Origin: a virus
Direction: 5' to 3' (one strand)
Virus record (IMG/VR): IMGVR_UViG_3300032782_000034
Span: 1 to 20,144 of that record
DNA: 20,144 nt
Under the pieces are notes generated by a model, which worked only from the letters and a program-made list of their open reading frames with translations, was not told where the DNA came from and did not search any database. A program made the translations under genes and the position numbers. Position 1 is the first letter of the stretch, and each line of letters opens with the position of its first letter. This document shows, one piece after another, positions 11,799 through 17,299 of this stretch.

Positions 11799-12251
11799 TT
11801 AAGCAATCGGATAAGGAGCGTCTGAGGAAGTCGGGTAGGGATTGAAAAGTCTATCGTTCCCAACCACATTTTCCTGAACCGTAGTTCCCGCCGTAGTAAC
11901 CGGACGCCCAACGCGAGCCATGATTTCGACCATCTTGCTATCCTGAGTGGGACGCAAAATTCGCATATCCGCTTTGTATCGAGCCGCGAGAATCTGAGTT
12001 AGAGCCTCTCCGATATCGGGACGAACGAAATGTTTGCCCGGACCGTATTCAATTAAGTTAAGGGAGATATTGCCGAAAGGCTTGTCAAACAAGTCCTTGC
12101 TTGGCACCTGCACCGTGACCCAATTGCTCTGGTCCTCACAAAACTCTTCGTGCGCTTCCCAAATCTTTTGATGGCGCTCGTTTCGAATCTTTTTGTTCTG
12201 AGCTACTCGCTGAGAGTAGGTCTGTTCTTTCTTAACGCTGTTGTCAGCCAT
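11799..12251 (-). CDS. Unknown protein after the capsid gene (150 aa)
   Basis: The gene encodes 150 residues from ATG 12251 with AAAGG eight bases upstream, and one of the CACAA hairpins ends 12 bases before the ATG. The first 40 residues are highly charged and helical (KKEQTYSQRVAQNKKIRNERHQKIW). A compact central part follows (NWVTVQVPSKDLFDKPFG, LNLIEYGPGKHFVRPDIGEALTQIL), then a flexible Thr/Val/Asn-rich tail. I recognise no family. Its position directly after the major capsid gene would suit a head-associated protein, such as a decoration or completion protein, but nothing in the sequence proves this. The next gene starts two bases after its stop. Confidence 0.55.
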   Translation of the reverse strand: MADNSVKKEQTYSQRVAQNKKIRNERHQKIWEAHEEFCEDQSNWVTVQVPSKDLFDKPFGNISLNLIEYGPGKHFVRPDIGEALTQILAARYKADMRILRPTQDSKMVEIMARVGRPVTTAGTTVQENVVGNDRLFNPYPTSSDAPYPIA

Positions 12252-12263
12252 TGCGATACCTTT

Positions 12264-12276
12264 ATCCTTGTGGGAT
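12264..12276 (-). promoter_or_regulatory. CACAA-loop hairpin before the 150-aa gene
   Basis: On the minus strand this reads ATCC-CACAA-GGAT, a four-base-pair stem with a CACAA loop. It ends 12 bases before start codon 12251, just upstream of the AAAGG ribosome site. Two further hairpins with the same loop and different stems lie at 14386-14398 and 14414-14428. The structure is read directly; a function in translation or mRNA processing is inferred. Confidence 0.5.
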
Positions 12277-12292
12277 TTAAATTAATGGAGTA

Positions 12293-12315
12293 GGGTGGGT
12301 GGTAGTTACCCACCC
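12293..12315 (-). terminator. GC-rich hairpin downstream of capsid gene, possible terminator
   Basis: On the minus strand GGGTGGGT pairs perfectly with ACCCACCC (arms 12308-12315 and 12293-12300) around a 7-base AACTACC loop, 63 bases after the capsid stop. The following bases (TACTCCATTAATTT) are AT-rich but lack a proper T run. It could be a leaky terminator or an mRNA-stabilising element that sets capsid expression above that of the tail genes. Confidence 0.45.
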
Positions 12316-12335
12316 CATCCAGTTTTTGGTTACAA

Positions 12336-12367
12336 ACTCAGGCGAAACCAAAGTGAAGTACCTGAGT
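12336..12367 (-). promoter_or_regulatory. Second inverted repeat after capsid stop
   Basis: A 7-bp perfect inverted repeat (ACTCAGG / CCTGAGT, arms 12361-12367 and 12336-12342) with an 18-base loop lies between the capsid stop and the stronger hairpin at 12293-12315. Together they make a structured 3' end for the capsid transcript. The stem is modest and could be chance. Confidence 0.3.
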
Positions 12368-12377
12368 CCGAAATTGA

Positions 12378-13400
12378 TTAAGCGTTGTTAACCGAGTTCT
12401 GACCAGCAGACACAATGCGGTAAATCCAGCTTTGATTGGTGATGATTGCCTTGAAAGCAAACTTGTAACCAATCTTACGGGACTGTTGCAAGGTGTCAGT
12501 CTGACCACCGGGGGCCGCAGCATACACGCGGAGGTTCTGCAAATCAGAAATCTGATAAGCATTCCGCGCGATACCGAACGAGTTATACGTCTTGTTGGCA
12601 TAGCCAGAAGTGGCAGACGTATTCGGAGCAAAACCGGGGGCGTTGCTCTTGACCACGCGCCAACCCGCAAGTTCATCAACCTCACCGCGCCAAATCCGCT
12701 CGGGCTTGCCGAACTGGTTTGAAGCCTTGAAGTCAGGGTCGTTCTGAAGGACAGCGTGTACCTGAGGAGCGAGAACGAGGACATAATCCCCATCTTCGAA
12801 CATCTGTGCGCCGGCATCCATCAACGACGCATGGACCTGCGTCATATCCGTATAACCGAAAGTGTCGCTCGCGGTCAGCGTAGAAACCGTCTTGCTGTTG
12901 GGGCAATAGACGTTAGAAGCCGCATTCAACACGTTGAAAACAAGAATGTCATACGTTTCAGCCGCGTGCAGACCGAGCATATAGAGTGCTCGACCCACAA
13001 CGTCATGCTTCGACGTGAGTTCCGCAAGGTCGGACAGACGGAGCAACTTACCGTACTGTTCCGCAATTGCTTGAAACTGAGACATTTGGAGTCCATCGGC
13101 ATCCGGCTGCACGCCTTCAGACAACTGCACCGGAGAAAGAGTCGTAGACAGCTTCTCCATACGGTTGAACTGAATCGTTTTGCTGGAATTGGAAGGAATC
13201 GGTTCTTTATCGCCGAACTGGTCGAGCACGGTTTTCAGAACCGCAACTTCGAGCAGCTTCGCGCTAAAGTAAGTCTGTTGGTCGCTCGCAAGCGAACCAG
13301 CAGGACCGGGGGTGCCAGTAGCACCAGTGATGACCGTAATAACATCATCACCAAGACCAAAGACAAGCCCGATAAGACCAAAAATAAGCTTACTAAACAT
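12378..13400 (-). CDS. Major capsid protein, N4-gp56-like family (340 aa)
   Basis: The gene encodes 340 residues from ATG 13400 with AGGA six bases upstream. It is the head shell subunit. From about residue 40 the sequence has the plan of N4-gp56-type capsid proteins (HK97 fold): an extended arm with FSAKLLEVAVLKTVLDQFGD, the loop KTIQFNRMEKLSTTLSPVQLSEGVQPD, a long helix region (LSDLAELTSKHDVVGRALYML, AAETYDILVFNVLN), DGDYVLVLAPQVHAVLQNDPDF, and a late domain with SFGIARNAYQISDLQNLRVYAAAPG. It follows the scaffold-like gene by 17 bases. The N-terminus is odd: residues 3-16 are hydrophobic (SKLIFGLIGLVFGL) and 26-36 carry collagen-like Gly-x-x triplets (GATGTPGPAGS). The segment may be cut off or may act as a contact during assembly. 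Confidence 0.78.
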   Translation of the reverse strand: MFSKLIFGLIGLVFGLGDDVITVITGATGTPGPAGSLASDQQTYFSAKLLEVAVLKTVLDQFGDKEPIPSNSSKTIQFNRMEKLSTTLSPVQLSEGVQPDADGLQMSQFQAIAEQYGKLLRLSDLAELTSKHDVVGRALYMLGLHAAETYDILVFNVLNAASNVYCPNSKTVSTLTASDTFGYTDMTQVHASLMDAGAQMFEDGDYVLVLAPQVHAVLQNDPDFKASNQFGKPERIWRGEVDELAGWRVVKSNAPGFAPNTSATSGYANKTYNSFGIARNAYQISDLQNLRVYAAAPGGQTDTLQQSRKIGYKFAFKAIITNQSWIYRIVSAGQNSVNNA

Positions 13401-13417
13401 GGAATATCCTAATCTTC

Positions 13418-14374
13418 TTAGAAGTCCAGTTTTGCTCCCGAAGCCTCATGCTGAGCAATAATCGCTCGGATGCCATCAATCGTACCAAATGAAGGCTTGG
13501 CTGCTCCTGTGACAGGCGTCAGCGTTGGGGTGGTAGGGGTAGCAGTGGGAACTGGCCTAGAAGGGGTTTGGGTTTGAGACAGTTGAGTAGCCGCCGCAAC
13601 AGCTTGTGGTAGTGACAACCCTTTGCCGATAAGGTAGGCAGCTTTATAAAGCCCCGGCAACTGACCACTGAACTGAGTATCAGATTCAGCAGTAGCGATA
13701 GCGTTCTTAAGCTCGGGCACAACTTCCAAAGCCTTCTGATAGCCTTGACTACCGTAGAAGGTATTGAAATCCTGAATCTCAGAAGCCACAGTCTTAATCG
13801 CCTGATTTCGAACAACATCCGTCGAAGCGGCAATTACACTTGGCCCGAGAGAATCGAGCAAGAACTTTTTCTGAACGGCAGCATATTGCTCAGGACTCGC
13901 TTGCGCGGCCTTATACAAATCTTCAATATACTGCTTGGGGTTCTGCGCGTAGTTCACAACCTGAGGCTGTGGCTGAACTCCATTCGTTCCAACAGGCTGA
14001 CCGGAAATCGGGTCAACACCCGTCGCCAATACATATCGCTGGCGTAACGTATCAATGAGTTGGTCTTTTTGGTTAAGACCCTCAACAGCCGCATCCTTCG
14101 TCTTATACACAGACCTCTCGCCCTTGATGAACGTGTCATCCGCTTGCGGGACAACTGGCGTATCTTGGGTCTGCTGCGCTTGTGGTGCAACAGTCTGTGG
14201 AGTTGGGGTTTGGGAAACGGGTGTTCTCGTTTCAACCTGTTGTGCAGGTTTAGATGGGGTTCCGTCCGCAGAGAACAGCGCGTCGAAAGCATCATCGGTA
14301 AAGCCACCGGGCATATCGTTCAACTGGACGATTCCACCGGGAGCTACTTGGTCTACAGTCGTATCTTCTGGCAT
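13418..14374 (-). CDS. Scaffold-like head assembly protein (318 aa)
   Basis: The gene encodes 318 residues from ATG 14374 with GAGG six bases upstream. The first 110 residues are acidic and low in complexity, with a Pro/Gln/Thr-rich stretch (about 40-80), followed by a helical core (VYKTKDAAVEGLNQKDQLIDTLRQRYV). Residues about 140-260 are helical and Ala/Gln-rich, and a Pro/Thr linker leads to a short basic C-terminal helix (TIDGIRAIIAQHEASGAKLDF). Scaffolds usually bind the capsid protein through such a C-terminal helix. Immediate placement before the major capsid gene and between it and the portal fits. No protease motif is seen. The call rests on context and composition rather than recognised homology. 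Two CACAA hairpins sit in its leader. Confidence 0.7.
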   Translation of the reverse strand: MPEDTTVDQVAPGGIVQLNDMPGGFTDDAFDALFSADGTPSKPAQQVETRTPVSQTPTPQTVAPQAQQTQDTPVVPQADDTFIKGERSVYKTKDAAVEGLNQKDQLIDTLRQRYVLATGVDPISGQPVGTNGVQPQPQVVNYAQNPKQYIEDLYKAAQASPEQYAAVQKKFLLDSLGPSVIAASTDVVRNQAIKTVASEIQDFNTFYGSQGYQKALEVVPELKNAIATAESDTQFSGQLPGLYKAAYLIGKGLSLPQAVAAATQLSQTQTPSRPVPTATPTTPTLTPVTGAAKPSFGTIDGIRAIIAQHEASGAKLDF

Positions 14375-14385
14375 TACTTACCTCG

Positions 14386-14398
14386 GTCCTTGTGGGAC
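14386..14398 (-). promoter_or_regulatory. CACAA-loop hairpin before scaffold gene
   Basis: On the minus strand this reads GTCC-CACAA-GGAC, with four base pairs. It ends 11 bases before start codon 14374, immediately upstream of the GAGG ribosome site. Position relative to the start almost equals that of the hairpin before 12251. Confidence 0.5.
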
Positions 14399-14413
14399 TT
14401 CAGATTTAACTAC

Positions 14414-14428
14414 AACCCTTGTGGGGTT
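14414..14428 (-). promoter_or_regulatory. CACAA-loop hairpin at the end of the 137-aa gene
   Basis: On the minus strand this reads AACCC-CACAA-GGGTT, with five base pairs. The loop is identical to the other two copies while the outer stem pairs differ but stay complementary. The stem begins inside the TAA stop of the preceding gene (14427-14429) and lies 15 bases before the next hairpin. Confidence 0.5.
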
Positions 14429-14840
14429 AAACTTGTTCATTGCCGATGAAATTGTAGGTAGCTTCAATCTGCTTGATAGCTTCCACATCTTCCATCTCAG
14501 CGTCACGCTTCGCAATAGCGACTCGATTAGTAGCGGCGTCAACTTGCTGCTTCAACCAATTGCACCAGAAAATGCCGCTTTGAAGAAACTCGACATCCCT
14601 AATATTCGCATGACGTTCATAATTAAGCTTCTGTTTGAGATTAGCCGCTTGTAAAGCCAATCTATCACACAGAGCTACGAACCCCGGATGGGCACTCAGA
14701 GTCGTAACGGTTTCCCGCATCTCTCTGTTCCACCCCGATTGGGTCCTTAGATTCGGGACTTCAACAACTTGATATTTAACTACTTCCCGAACCTCTGGCT
14801 TAATATCTAATACTCGAATTACCCACTCCCTAAAAGACAT
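14427..14840 (-). CDS. Unknown helical protein between portal and scaffold genes (137 aa)
   Basis: The gene encodes 137 residues from ATG 14840, with the best ribosome site in the window (TAAGGAGAGGATATG), formed partly by the preceding stop. The protein is mostly helical and charged. A short N-terminal beta-like segment (VREVVKYQVVEVP) is followed by helices (REMRETVTTLSAHPGFVALCDRL, LQAANLKQKLNY, GIFWCNWLKQQVDAATNRV). No membrane segment or enzyme motif is seen and I recognise no family. Small helical proteins are common between portal and scaffold genes and may assist head assembly. The role here is unknown. Confidence 0.6.
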   Translation of the reverse strand: MSFREWVIRVLDIKPEVREVVKYQVVEVPNLRTQSGWNREMRETVTTLSAHPGFVALCDRLALQAANLKQKLNYERHANIRDVEFLQSGIFWCNWLKQQVDAATNRVAIAKRDAEMEDVEAIKQIEATYNFIGNEQV

Positions 14841-15121: not shown

Positions 15122-17299
15122 TTATTCACTTCCCGCAGTACCAAGGGCATTGCTTCCCATGTGCTGCGCAAAACTAGACATTTCGGTTCCACCCTCACCG
15201 CCGGGAATCTGTCCTTCATGTTGGCTTTGCGATGGTCTGCCGACGTGACGACCCGTTTCGGGTGGGTGAGGTGGAAAAATTGAATCCATTGTTTCAGCCA
15301 GATAATCCTCAACCACGCCCTGAACTTTCTGAGCACGTTGGGCAATCTGGTCGCCAGAGCCTTCTTTACCTGCTTGACCGAGGGCGGCTGGTAGAGCCTT
15401 GCCTTCAATCTTGAGCAACTCACGGATGAGTTCCTCTTGGTAGGCCATCTGTCGGGACTGAGCCGCTTCTGCCTGAACCTGTTGGTCGGGCTTGAGCAGT
15501 CGGTTCTGGTTCGGAATCTCCATGCAGCGAGCAATTTCCCGTAGGAATTCCCCCTGATTGGCGTATGGAGACTGCATGGCAATGTTGTAGAACGCCATCA
15601 AATTCCGCTGCTTGACAACTTTGCCAGTGGCGTAGTTAGCGCCAACAAAATCAAAACTATAGCTCCCGATTAAGGAAGATAGCGGGACACGTCCGTACTT
15701 GGGGATTCCGGGCGGTAGTCCTGTGATTTCATACTCCATCTCATCCGTGCCATATTGCTGAATGAGCGCCGCAACTATTTCGCAAAGCGGCTGTAGAATC
15801 TGTATTTCGAAATTTGAAATAAAGCGTTTGAAAGTGTATCCACTCTCATTGATGACTTGGCTGATGCCACTGGATGTACGGTTGCCTGTTGGTGAGCCTA
15901 CACCTTTCGCATAGAAGTCGCTGACTCCTGAAGCCATCTCAATCATGCTCCGATAGACATCGAGAATCATGTAATCATTGGAATTAGGAGTAAAAGTTGG
16001 CAGAGGCATGATACCCTTTGAAGGGTCGCCTGTGACTGCCACTTTTCCACCGGGAACGTTGCCTTGGTCCAACTGTTCATGGTCAATATCCATCTCAGTG
16101 TTGTATGCAACACGACGATTGATACCCATGTTCCAGTTATCAGTAATCATGTTGGTGAAGACGTTGATGCCTTCATTCAAGTCACTGATGCGTTCAATCA
16201 GGCCATAACCAAAGGCATCACCGGGAACCTTGGTATAGGGCATGTGTAGAATCGGAATTCGTTTGTGAGCAAAGGGATTCGGGCCGTTATAGAGAATGAT
16301 GGCAGGTCCATTATACAAATCTCTCTTGTATGCAGAGAGACTAGCATTGCGATATTGATACCTGCGGTCTTTCCAAGACAGAGCATCCCAATCATCCGGG
16401 CTGGTGATTAGAATAACTTCTTGCTTCGTCTTATCCCAAATCTCTGCGATGCGAATGAGAATACCATCTCGGCTCTCACTCTTGTACTTCATAATATTCT
16501 TCGTGATTTCTGCAACAGCTTCCGGGCGATACATCTTCGGATTCTGTTCAAACTCACGCATGAACTGCCCGTAGGGCTTCTCGACCAACATAGCGAGAAT
16601 GTCTCCATCGGGGTCCATCAAAAAGTCATAAATATCAATAGGAATCAGCTTCGGGCAATTGCGAGGAACGCGCTTGGTGACAAGCTGAGTGCCAATTTGA
16701 ATCGGCTGACCAGTGACTCCCGTAATGGGAATCATACTTGGCTGACCAGTGTTGGCATCTATAATCGGTTGACCTGTATTCGGGTCAAGTACCGGCTGCA
16801 TTGCAAAAACCGGTTCGGGACCCATAACAGTCTCGTAATCCCAATCCCAATCTACCTTGAGTGCATAATGGCCATAGATAGCATCGCCGGTAAGGAATTC
16901 TTCCAGCTTAGTCATCCAGTCTGCACGCTTGAGGCAAGTCAGTAACACCCGCTGCATGTTCTCAGCAGCTTCGTCTGTTCCACCCCTAGAACGGGTTTCA
17001 ATAGGCGGGTCAATGCTAAAGAACGCATCCCGAGTCCGAGATACAACCGCATCTACGTTAGACTGAGAATAAGGAACAAAAGTATTCGAACGCGGAGTCA
17101 GGTTATCAGGATAGAGTCTCCGGTCCCTTTGGCCAATGTATTGCCGATAGAAATAGCTTCTGCGCTGGTCGTAAGGCCGACGGAAGTTACGCAAACGGGA
17201 AAGAGTAGCTTTTGCCCAGTTAAGCTTTGCTGTCAATTCAACCGTTTTGTCAATGTCACTGACACCGGTACCGGCAGCAGGTTGTGGGTTTTGTGCCAT
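15122..17299 (-). CDS. Portal protein (725 aa)
   Basis: The gene encodes 725 residues, and ATG 17299 shares one base with the preceding stop. It forms the dodecameric ring at the DNA entry vertex. The N-terminal helical part (LTAKLNWAKATLSRLRNFRRPYDQRRSYFYRQYIG) and the following SNTFVPYSQSNVDAVVSRTRDAFFS are typical of large podoviral portals. So are FLTGDAIYGHYALKVDWDWDY, the FLMDPDGD segment, the middle region with YGLIERISDLNEGINVFTNMITDN, and the helical Gln/Ala-rich C-terminal barrel (PDQQVQAEAAQSRQMAYQEELIRELLKI). Residues about 175-190 contain two NTGQP units. The length is similar to P22 (725 aa) and N4-type portals. Position before scaffold and capsid genes supports the call. The terminase genes are not in the window and may lie beyond 20144. 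Confidence 0.82.
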   Translation of the reverse strand: MAQNPQPAAGTGVSDIDKTVELTAKLNWAKATLSRLRNFRRPYDQRRSYFYRQYIGQRDRRLYPDNLTPRSNTFVPYSQSNVDAVVSRTRDAFFSIDPPIETRSRGGTDEAAENMQRVLLTCLKRADWMTKLEEFLTGDAIYGHYALKVDWDWDYETVMGPEPVFAMQPVLDPNTGQPIIDANTGQPSMIPITGVTGQPIQIGTQLVTKRVPRNCPKLIPIDIYDFLMDPDGDILAMLVEKPYGQFMREFEQNPKMYRPEAVAEITKNIMKYKSESRDGILIRIAEIWDKTKQEVILITSPDDWDALSWKDRRYQYRNASLSAYKRDLYNGPAIILYNGPNPFAHKRIPILHMPYTKVPGDAFGYGLIERISDLNEGINVFTNMITDNWNMGINRRVAYNTEMDIDHEQLDQGNVPGGKVAVTGDPSKGIMPLPTFTPNSNDYMILDVYRSMIEMASGVSDFYAKGVGSPTGNRTSSGISQVINESGYTFKRFISNFEIQILQPLCEIVAALIQQYGTDEMEYEITGLPPGIPKYGRVPLSSLIGSYSFDFVGANYATGKVVKQRNLMAFYNIAMQSPYANQGEFLREIARCMEIPNQNRLLKPDQQVQAEAAQSRQMAYQEELIRELLKIEGKALPAALGQAGKEGSGDQIAQRAQKVQGVVEDYLAETMDSIFPPHPPETGRHVGRPSQSQHEGQIPGGEGGTEMSSFAQHMGSNALGTAGSE

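Follow-up and report, generated by a model that had tools for sequence, protein, structure and literature searches.

In one family of uncultured phages from soil and peat, small RNA hairpins with an almost invariant CACAA loop stand before the scaffold-like gene, and in one clade also around the start of a small gene 3′ of the capsid gene. We consider it probable that these hairpins serve the late head-gene mRNA as a multi-site translational operator, bound by a putative phage protein. The function class is already known; what appears to be new is the element itself, the genes it targets, and its arrangement in multiple sites.

The window, i.e., the whole 20,144-base virus record analyzed here, carries a podovirus-like head module on its minus strand. 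The portal gene (15122-17299, minus strand; PHROG 332/1216) is separated by two small genes on that strand from a 318-aa scaffold-like gene (13418..14374, minus strand), the principal hairpin target, which lies directly before the major capsid gene (12378..13400, minus strand; PHROG 1357, E 1e-36). A small gene 3′ of the capsid gene, encoding 150 aa and named P150 here (11799..12251, minus strand), is the second target in the window’s clade. The scaffold-like protein has a Q/P-rich N-terminus, a helical core, and a conserved C-terminal helix, and among viral folds it matches a phage scaffolding protein best, albeit weakly (E 6e-3); the predicted structure of P150 gave no PDB fold match. Several other features of these genomes were recorded alongside. 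A terminator-like hairpin, GGGGUGGGUAACUACCACCCACCC, lies directly 3′ of the capsid gene (12293-12316, minus strand), and relatives carry long-stem versions of it, some with loops containing ACAA (e.g., GGGGAGGA-CACAA-UCCUCCCC in L055). An invariant 14-mer, TCCCTCGTCGGGAT, occupies capsid codons 9-12, near +28 of the ATG, in L024 (at 10023) and about 24 other relatives, with its synonymous sites frozen and a possible fold UCCC-UCGUC-GGGA; it is not present in the window. Five relatives (L024, L025, L027, L040, and L051) have a small extra ORF between the capsid and P150 genes that by eye resembles an HNH endonuclease (YRRL...GNKCxCCG), and the D hairpin described below lies 3′ of that ORF wherever the P150 start was readable. 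One genome of this phage family encodes two COOH.NH2 ligase-like proteins of the phiEco32 type (L078:1867-3276 and L078:6176-7210, minus strand).

Three hairpins of this module had been reported in an initial annotation of the window, and all were found where it had placed them on the minus strand: hairpin A (14413..14429, UAACCC-CACAA-GGGUUG, i.e., the reported 14414-14428 plus one U-G pair), hairpin B (14386..14398, GUCC-CACAA-GGAC), and hairpin D (12264..12276, AUCC-CACAA-GGAU). A and B are the outer and inner members of a tandem pair before the scaffold gene, and the distances it had given to start codons, 11 nt from B to the scaffold ATG and 12 nt from D to the P150 ATG, are correct. The list was incomplete, as it had missed two further minus-strand members: hairpin C (14234..14250, AACCUG-CACAA-CAGGUU), inside the scaffold gene with its loop at +130 from the ATG, and hairpin E (12237..12248, GCUG-ACAA-CAGC), a tetraloop form over P150 codons 2-5. 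Likewise, the CC/GG stem base that it had described is present in the three reported copies but does not belong to the motif, since relatives use many other stems. Counted against dinucleotide shuffles, CCCACAAGG occurs three times in the window, always on the minus strand, vs 0.11 expected (0 of 100 shuffles reached three), and CACAA is the commonest loop (4 copies) among the 96 perfect minus-strand hairpins with a 4-bp stem and a 5-nt loop. The linker between A and B (14399-14412, minus strand) is conserved between the window and its clade relatives as about GUAGUWAAAUCNAA, and within this clade AGUUUC often lies just 5′ of hairpin A. Searches against Rfam 15 returned no covariance-model match at gathering score in the window, L136, or L030.

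Relatives were collected by capsid and portal scans of IMG/VR, which yielded more than 100 loci with portal identities from 81% down to about 40%; after clustering, the scaffold start was located in 69 non-redundant loci. The 130 nt before the scaffold ATG in these loci hold 144 YACAA pentamers, 102 of them closed by at least four standard pairs, as compared with a mean of 10.4 and a maximum of 23 when 3′ arms were redistributed among sites (2000 shuffles), while at distances beyond 1.5 kb just 71 of 1778 YACAA pentamers have such a stem. A pentaloop hairpin precedes the scaffold gene in 67 of the 69 loci, and two or more do so in 53; in the other two loci (L012 and L027) that position is occupied by hairpins with an ACAA tetraloop, so the element is kept in 69 of 69, in line with the selection on RNA structure that the initial annotation had suggested. 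Copies inside the scaffold gene recur as well, with 48 of 201 YACAA closed by four pairs vs 4.6 for shuffled arms (maximum 13), distributed over 39 of the 69 loci and mainly at +100 to +200. At the P150 start, where hairpins occur in the window’s clade, 17 of 50 loci have a pentaloop form and several more have tetraloops, and at the position of hairpin E relatives show gctg/gccg/ggtg stems with ACAA, or the pentaloops gccgaCACAAtcggt and gctgaCACAAtcagc. Hairpins were found at neither the portal start (0/62 loci), the capsid start (0/62 relatives), nor the start of the gene before scaffold (0/55 and 0/63 in two queries), and they are almost absent from tail genes. Across the six near-complete genomes examined, each about 60 kb, the gene-start hairpins are essentially those of scaffold and P150, and those of the head region lie on the sense strand. 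Hence, the motif is not as frequent in genes generally, a distribution on which the annotation had made its reading depend, but concentrated at two gene starts.

How far the element extends was further assessed with a tandem-pattern scan of IMG/VR, which returned at least 120 stretches; among the matches listed, only three have both stems, namely two known family contigs and L288, whose leader and gene start are the same as those of the family member L132. CACAA hairpins are absent from the gene leaders that were read in six cultured phages of the same capsid family (HMO-2011, Page, Y3, StenR_269, API480, and Slicky01), as they are from the stretches examined in two fecal contigs of that family, and the element is therefore, as far as seen, particular to the uncultured group. 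Searches for the host found no prophage, and the portal family matched a bacterial genome only once, through a 3.3 kb contig (L163) binned in a Terriglobia (Acidobacteriota) MAG, which gives a weak hint of a host in that group.

Stem pairing was evaluated at A sites that were picked for YACAA at the right distance, not for pairing, using column shuffles and a parsimony count. Pairs 1-5 are kept in 63, 61, 61, 63, and 50 of 64 sites; farther out, at pairs six to eight, pairing falls close to what shuffling gives, which delimits the stem to five pairs. In the set of 62 distinct sequences, pairing is seen in 92.9% of cells (50.0% after shuffling) and double changes in 136, and the covariation score reaches 1.058 vs 0.240 (0 of 500 shuffles); sliding the partner arm by one to three columns abolishes the covariation. 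The compensating stem changes noted at the outset in three copies thus extend through the family. Parsimony on one approximate tree of the scaffold protein places about 100 compensatory double changes in the stem (21, 27, 27, and 23 for pairs 2, 3, 4, and 5, respectively), as against 2-4 per pair for shuffled arms. Taken together, the shuffle, occurrence, and covariation counts rule out a chance origin. A DNA-level motif such as a promoter was rejected because the stem sequence is free, complementarity alone is kept, and the hairpins lie on the sense strand. Promoters of the N4 DNA-hairpin type were set aside too, as these have 3-nt loops vs the 5 or 4 nt seen here, and no match to a giant virion RNA polymerase was obtained for the largest protein (about 2,100 aa) or the others scanned.

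The loop, in contrast to the freely varying stem, is 95-99% CACAA: A and B together comprise 127 CACAA and 4 TACAA sites, with C-G or U-G preferred as the closing pair. The 80 nt immediately 5′ of the scaffold gene hold 90 pentaloop hairpins across the loci; CACAA accounts for 61 of these and no other loop for more than 3, single-base variants of CACAA being found in only 2 hairpins. Before scaffold genes, 61 of 130 CACAA lie in hairpins. The loop may also consist of just the four bases ACAA, as seen at P150 starts and before the scaffold gene in L004, L012, L027, and L183. Such a free stem under an almost invariant loop implies that some ligand recognizes the loop in the context of a helix. 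An N-like arginine-rich peptide that binds nascent-RNA hairpins and modifies RNA polymerase would recognize elements of the same size class, as lambdoid boxB likewise combines a 5-bp stem with a pentaloop holding an extra base relative to a tetraloop, is bound by a phage peptide, and in P22 has the loop GACAA (PMC12550061). However, the first loop base here is C rather than G, none of the 11 GACAA before scaffold genes is in a hairpin, leaving the GNRA-like pentaloop starting with G of the boxB/nut class absent, and the sites lie mid-operon at two ribosome sites instead of at the operon start and are repeated in coding sequence; we regard boxB-like antitermination as improbable. Loop-loop pairing with a phage RNA exposing UUGUG might accommodate either pyrimidine at the first loop base, which could pair with a partner G, but the six near-complete genomes share no position at which a hairpin with a UUGUG loop recurs, and the second-gene hairpins and some A and B sites have a 4-nt ACAA loop, such that this pairing is very hard to credit. 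CsrA/RsmA targets were also rejected, given that the loop is CACAA with no exposed GGA and that A and C sites mostly have no GGA.

With respect to the genes, 60 of the 67 loci having hairpin B have their best Shine-Dalgarno beginning in the loop or the 3′ arm of this hairpin (e.g., UUCC-CACAA-GGAG-caataAUG in L136), and the window has a separate GAGG just below hairpin B. This overlap with the ribosome site, together with that of E with P150 codons 2-5, argues for control of translation initiation. Since the A+B leader of the window folds no more stably than shuffles (z −0.8), occlusion of the ribosome site would need a bound ligand. Hairpins that overlap or adjoin ribosome sites, as B does at scaffold and as D and E do in flanking the P150 start, and a conserved loop on a compensating stem are both features of the gp43/MS2-type class of phage autogenous operators.

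These positions also bear on two other readings. In the first, the CACAA hairpins would be mRNA processing or stability sites, recognized by a nuclease of phage or host origin or by a protein that protects the RNA, and would thereby set how long the scaffold, capsid, and P150 segments of a single long transcript persist relative to one another. The sites do bracket the scaffold-capsid pair and lie at segment borders, and the in-gene copy C fits this reading as well as it fits repression. Processing nonetheless requires neither the Shine-Dalgarno within B nor the placement of E over codons, and no dedicated RNase was found among the minority of proteins scanned; this possibility, raised by the initial annotation beside that of a protein-bound operator, is the less likely of the two, and we think it unlikely, whereas the annotation’s wider reading of selection on RNA structure is supported and a translational-operator function is probable. 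No minus-strand terminator-like site coincides with the hairpins, and they were accordingly not classed as intrinsic terminators. Alternatively, the hairpins could activate translation by recruiting a host factor or by holding the ribosome site open, in which case it would be the translation machinery of the host that reads the loop. High amounts of scaffold and P150 are presumably required, and the AA of the Shine-Dalgarno AAGGA is displayed in the B loop, but A and C, which have no Shine-Dalgarno and often no GGA, are equally conserved in their loops, and capsid, the most needed product, has no hairpin at its own start, making activation rather doubtful.

For the translational operator that we prefer, we infer every step beyond a ligand reading the loop. 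A head protein encoded by the phage would recognize the loop on its stem; unassembled scaffold is the simplest candidate binder, since no site other than the one at scaffold is conserved across the whole family. The candidate protein would bind A, which has the longer stem, and B cooperatively, a mode suggested by the tandem arrangement and the greater strength of the outer stem, and thereby block the ribosome; the A-B loop distance is variable, mostly 15-40 nt, which makes a rigid dimer unlikely and favors a flexible contact. The block would limit scaffold, and in the window’s clade also P150, relative to capsid, since no hairpin stands at the capsid start although capsid lies directly 3′ of scaffold. 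Assembly would then use up the candidate protein and lift the block. Some observations stand against parts of this scheme. The scaffold protein is acidic overall (pI about 5.2), and neither its predicted structure nor that of P150 contains a known RNA-binding fold, which argues against scaffold as the binder as far as the models go. Hairpin C lies too far inside the scaffold gene to block initiation directly, and the P150-start hairpins are missing in distant relatives, which weighs against the operator model. A broader reading, which we advance tentatively as a possibility, is that the hairpins form an RNA element family not described before, by which a head protein of a tailed phage would sense its own assembly state: several (Y)ACAA copies, namely those at the scaffold ribosome site, within the scaffold gene, and at P150, would be bound simultaneously by scaffold not yet assembled or by a partner of it.

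Among known systems, the autogenous operator of the T4/RB69 DNA polymerase gp43 lies immediately 5′ of the gene it controls; it is a small hairpin in the mRNA whose loop, UAAC, is conserved (CAAC being the SELEX alternative) and whose stem is less constrained (PMC3014915). The hairpins here resemble it in being small, in lying at the regulated gene of a tailed dsDNA phage, and in combining a conserved loop with a looser stem, but they occur in tandem and within genes, serve head genes, and have a (Y)ACAA loop, whereas the gp43 system has a single hairpin, a replication gene, and a known binder. In MS2-type RNA phages, the coat protein-replicase operator is a loop-specific hairpin over the ribosome site or start codon, bound by a virion protein such that assembly is linked to translation; it has an ANYA tetraloop and a bulged A in the stem, whereas the hairpins here have no bulge, are present in several copies, and serve two genes. 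As for scaffold itself, Wyckoff and Casjens reportedly found in 1985 that P22 adjusts scaffold synthesis post-transcription to the amount of unassembled scaffold, and a lowering of scaffold relative to capsid here would have the same sense. The present phages have soil podovirus-like genomes unrelated to P22, for which we know of no such hairpin family.

How dsDNA phages proportion scaffold, capsid, and accessory head proteins is an old question, and to our knowledge no RNA operator family has been described for a scaffold gene. The element offers a defined 15-nt target with about 70 natural variants and clear testable mutations, and a loop-specific hairpin of this kind would provide a new RNA-protein tethering pair if its binder were found. 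It also illustrates that strong RNA covariation can go unnoticed in uncultured phages. If the broader reading of simultaneous binding at several sites holds, head-protein ratios in these tailed phages would be set by RNA binding, as they are in RNA phages.
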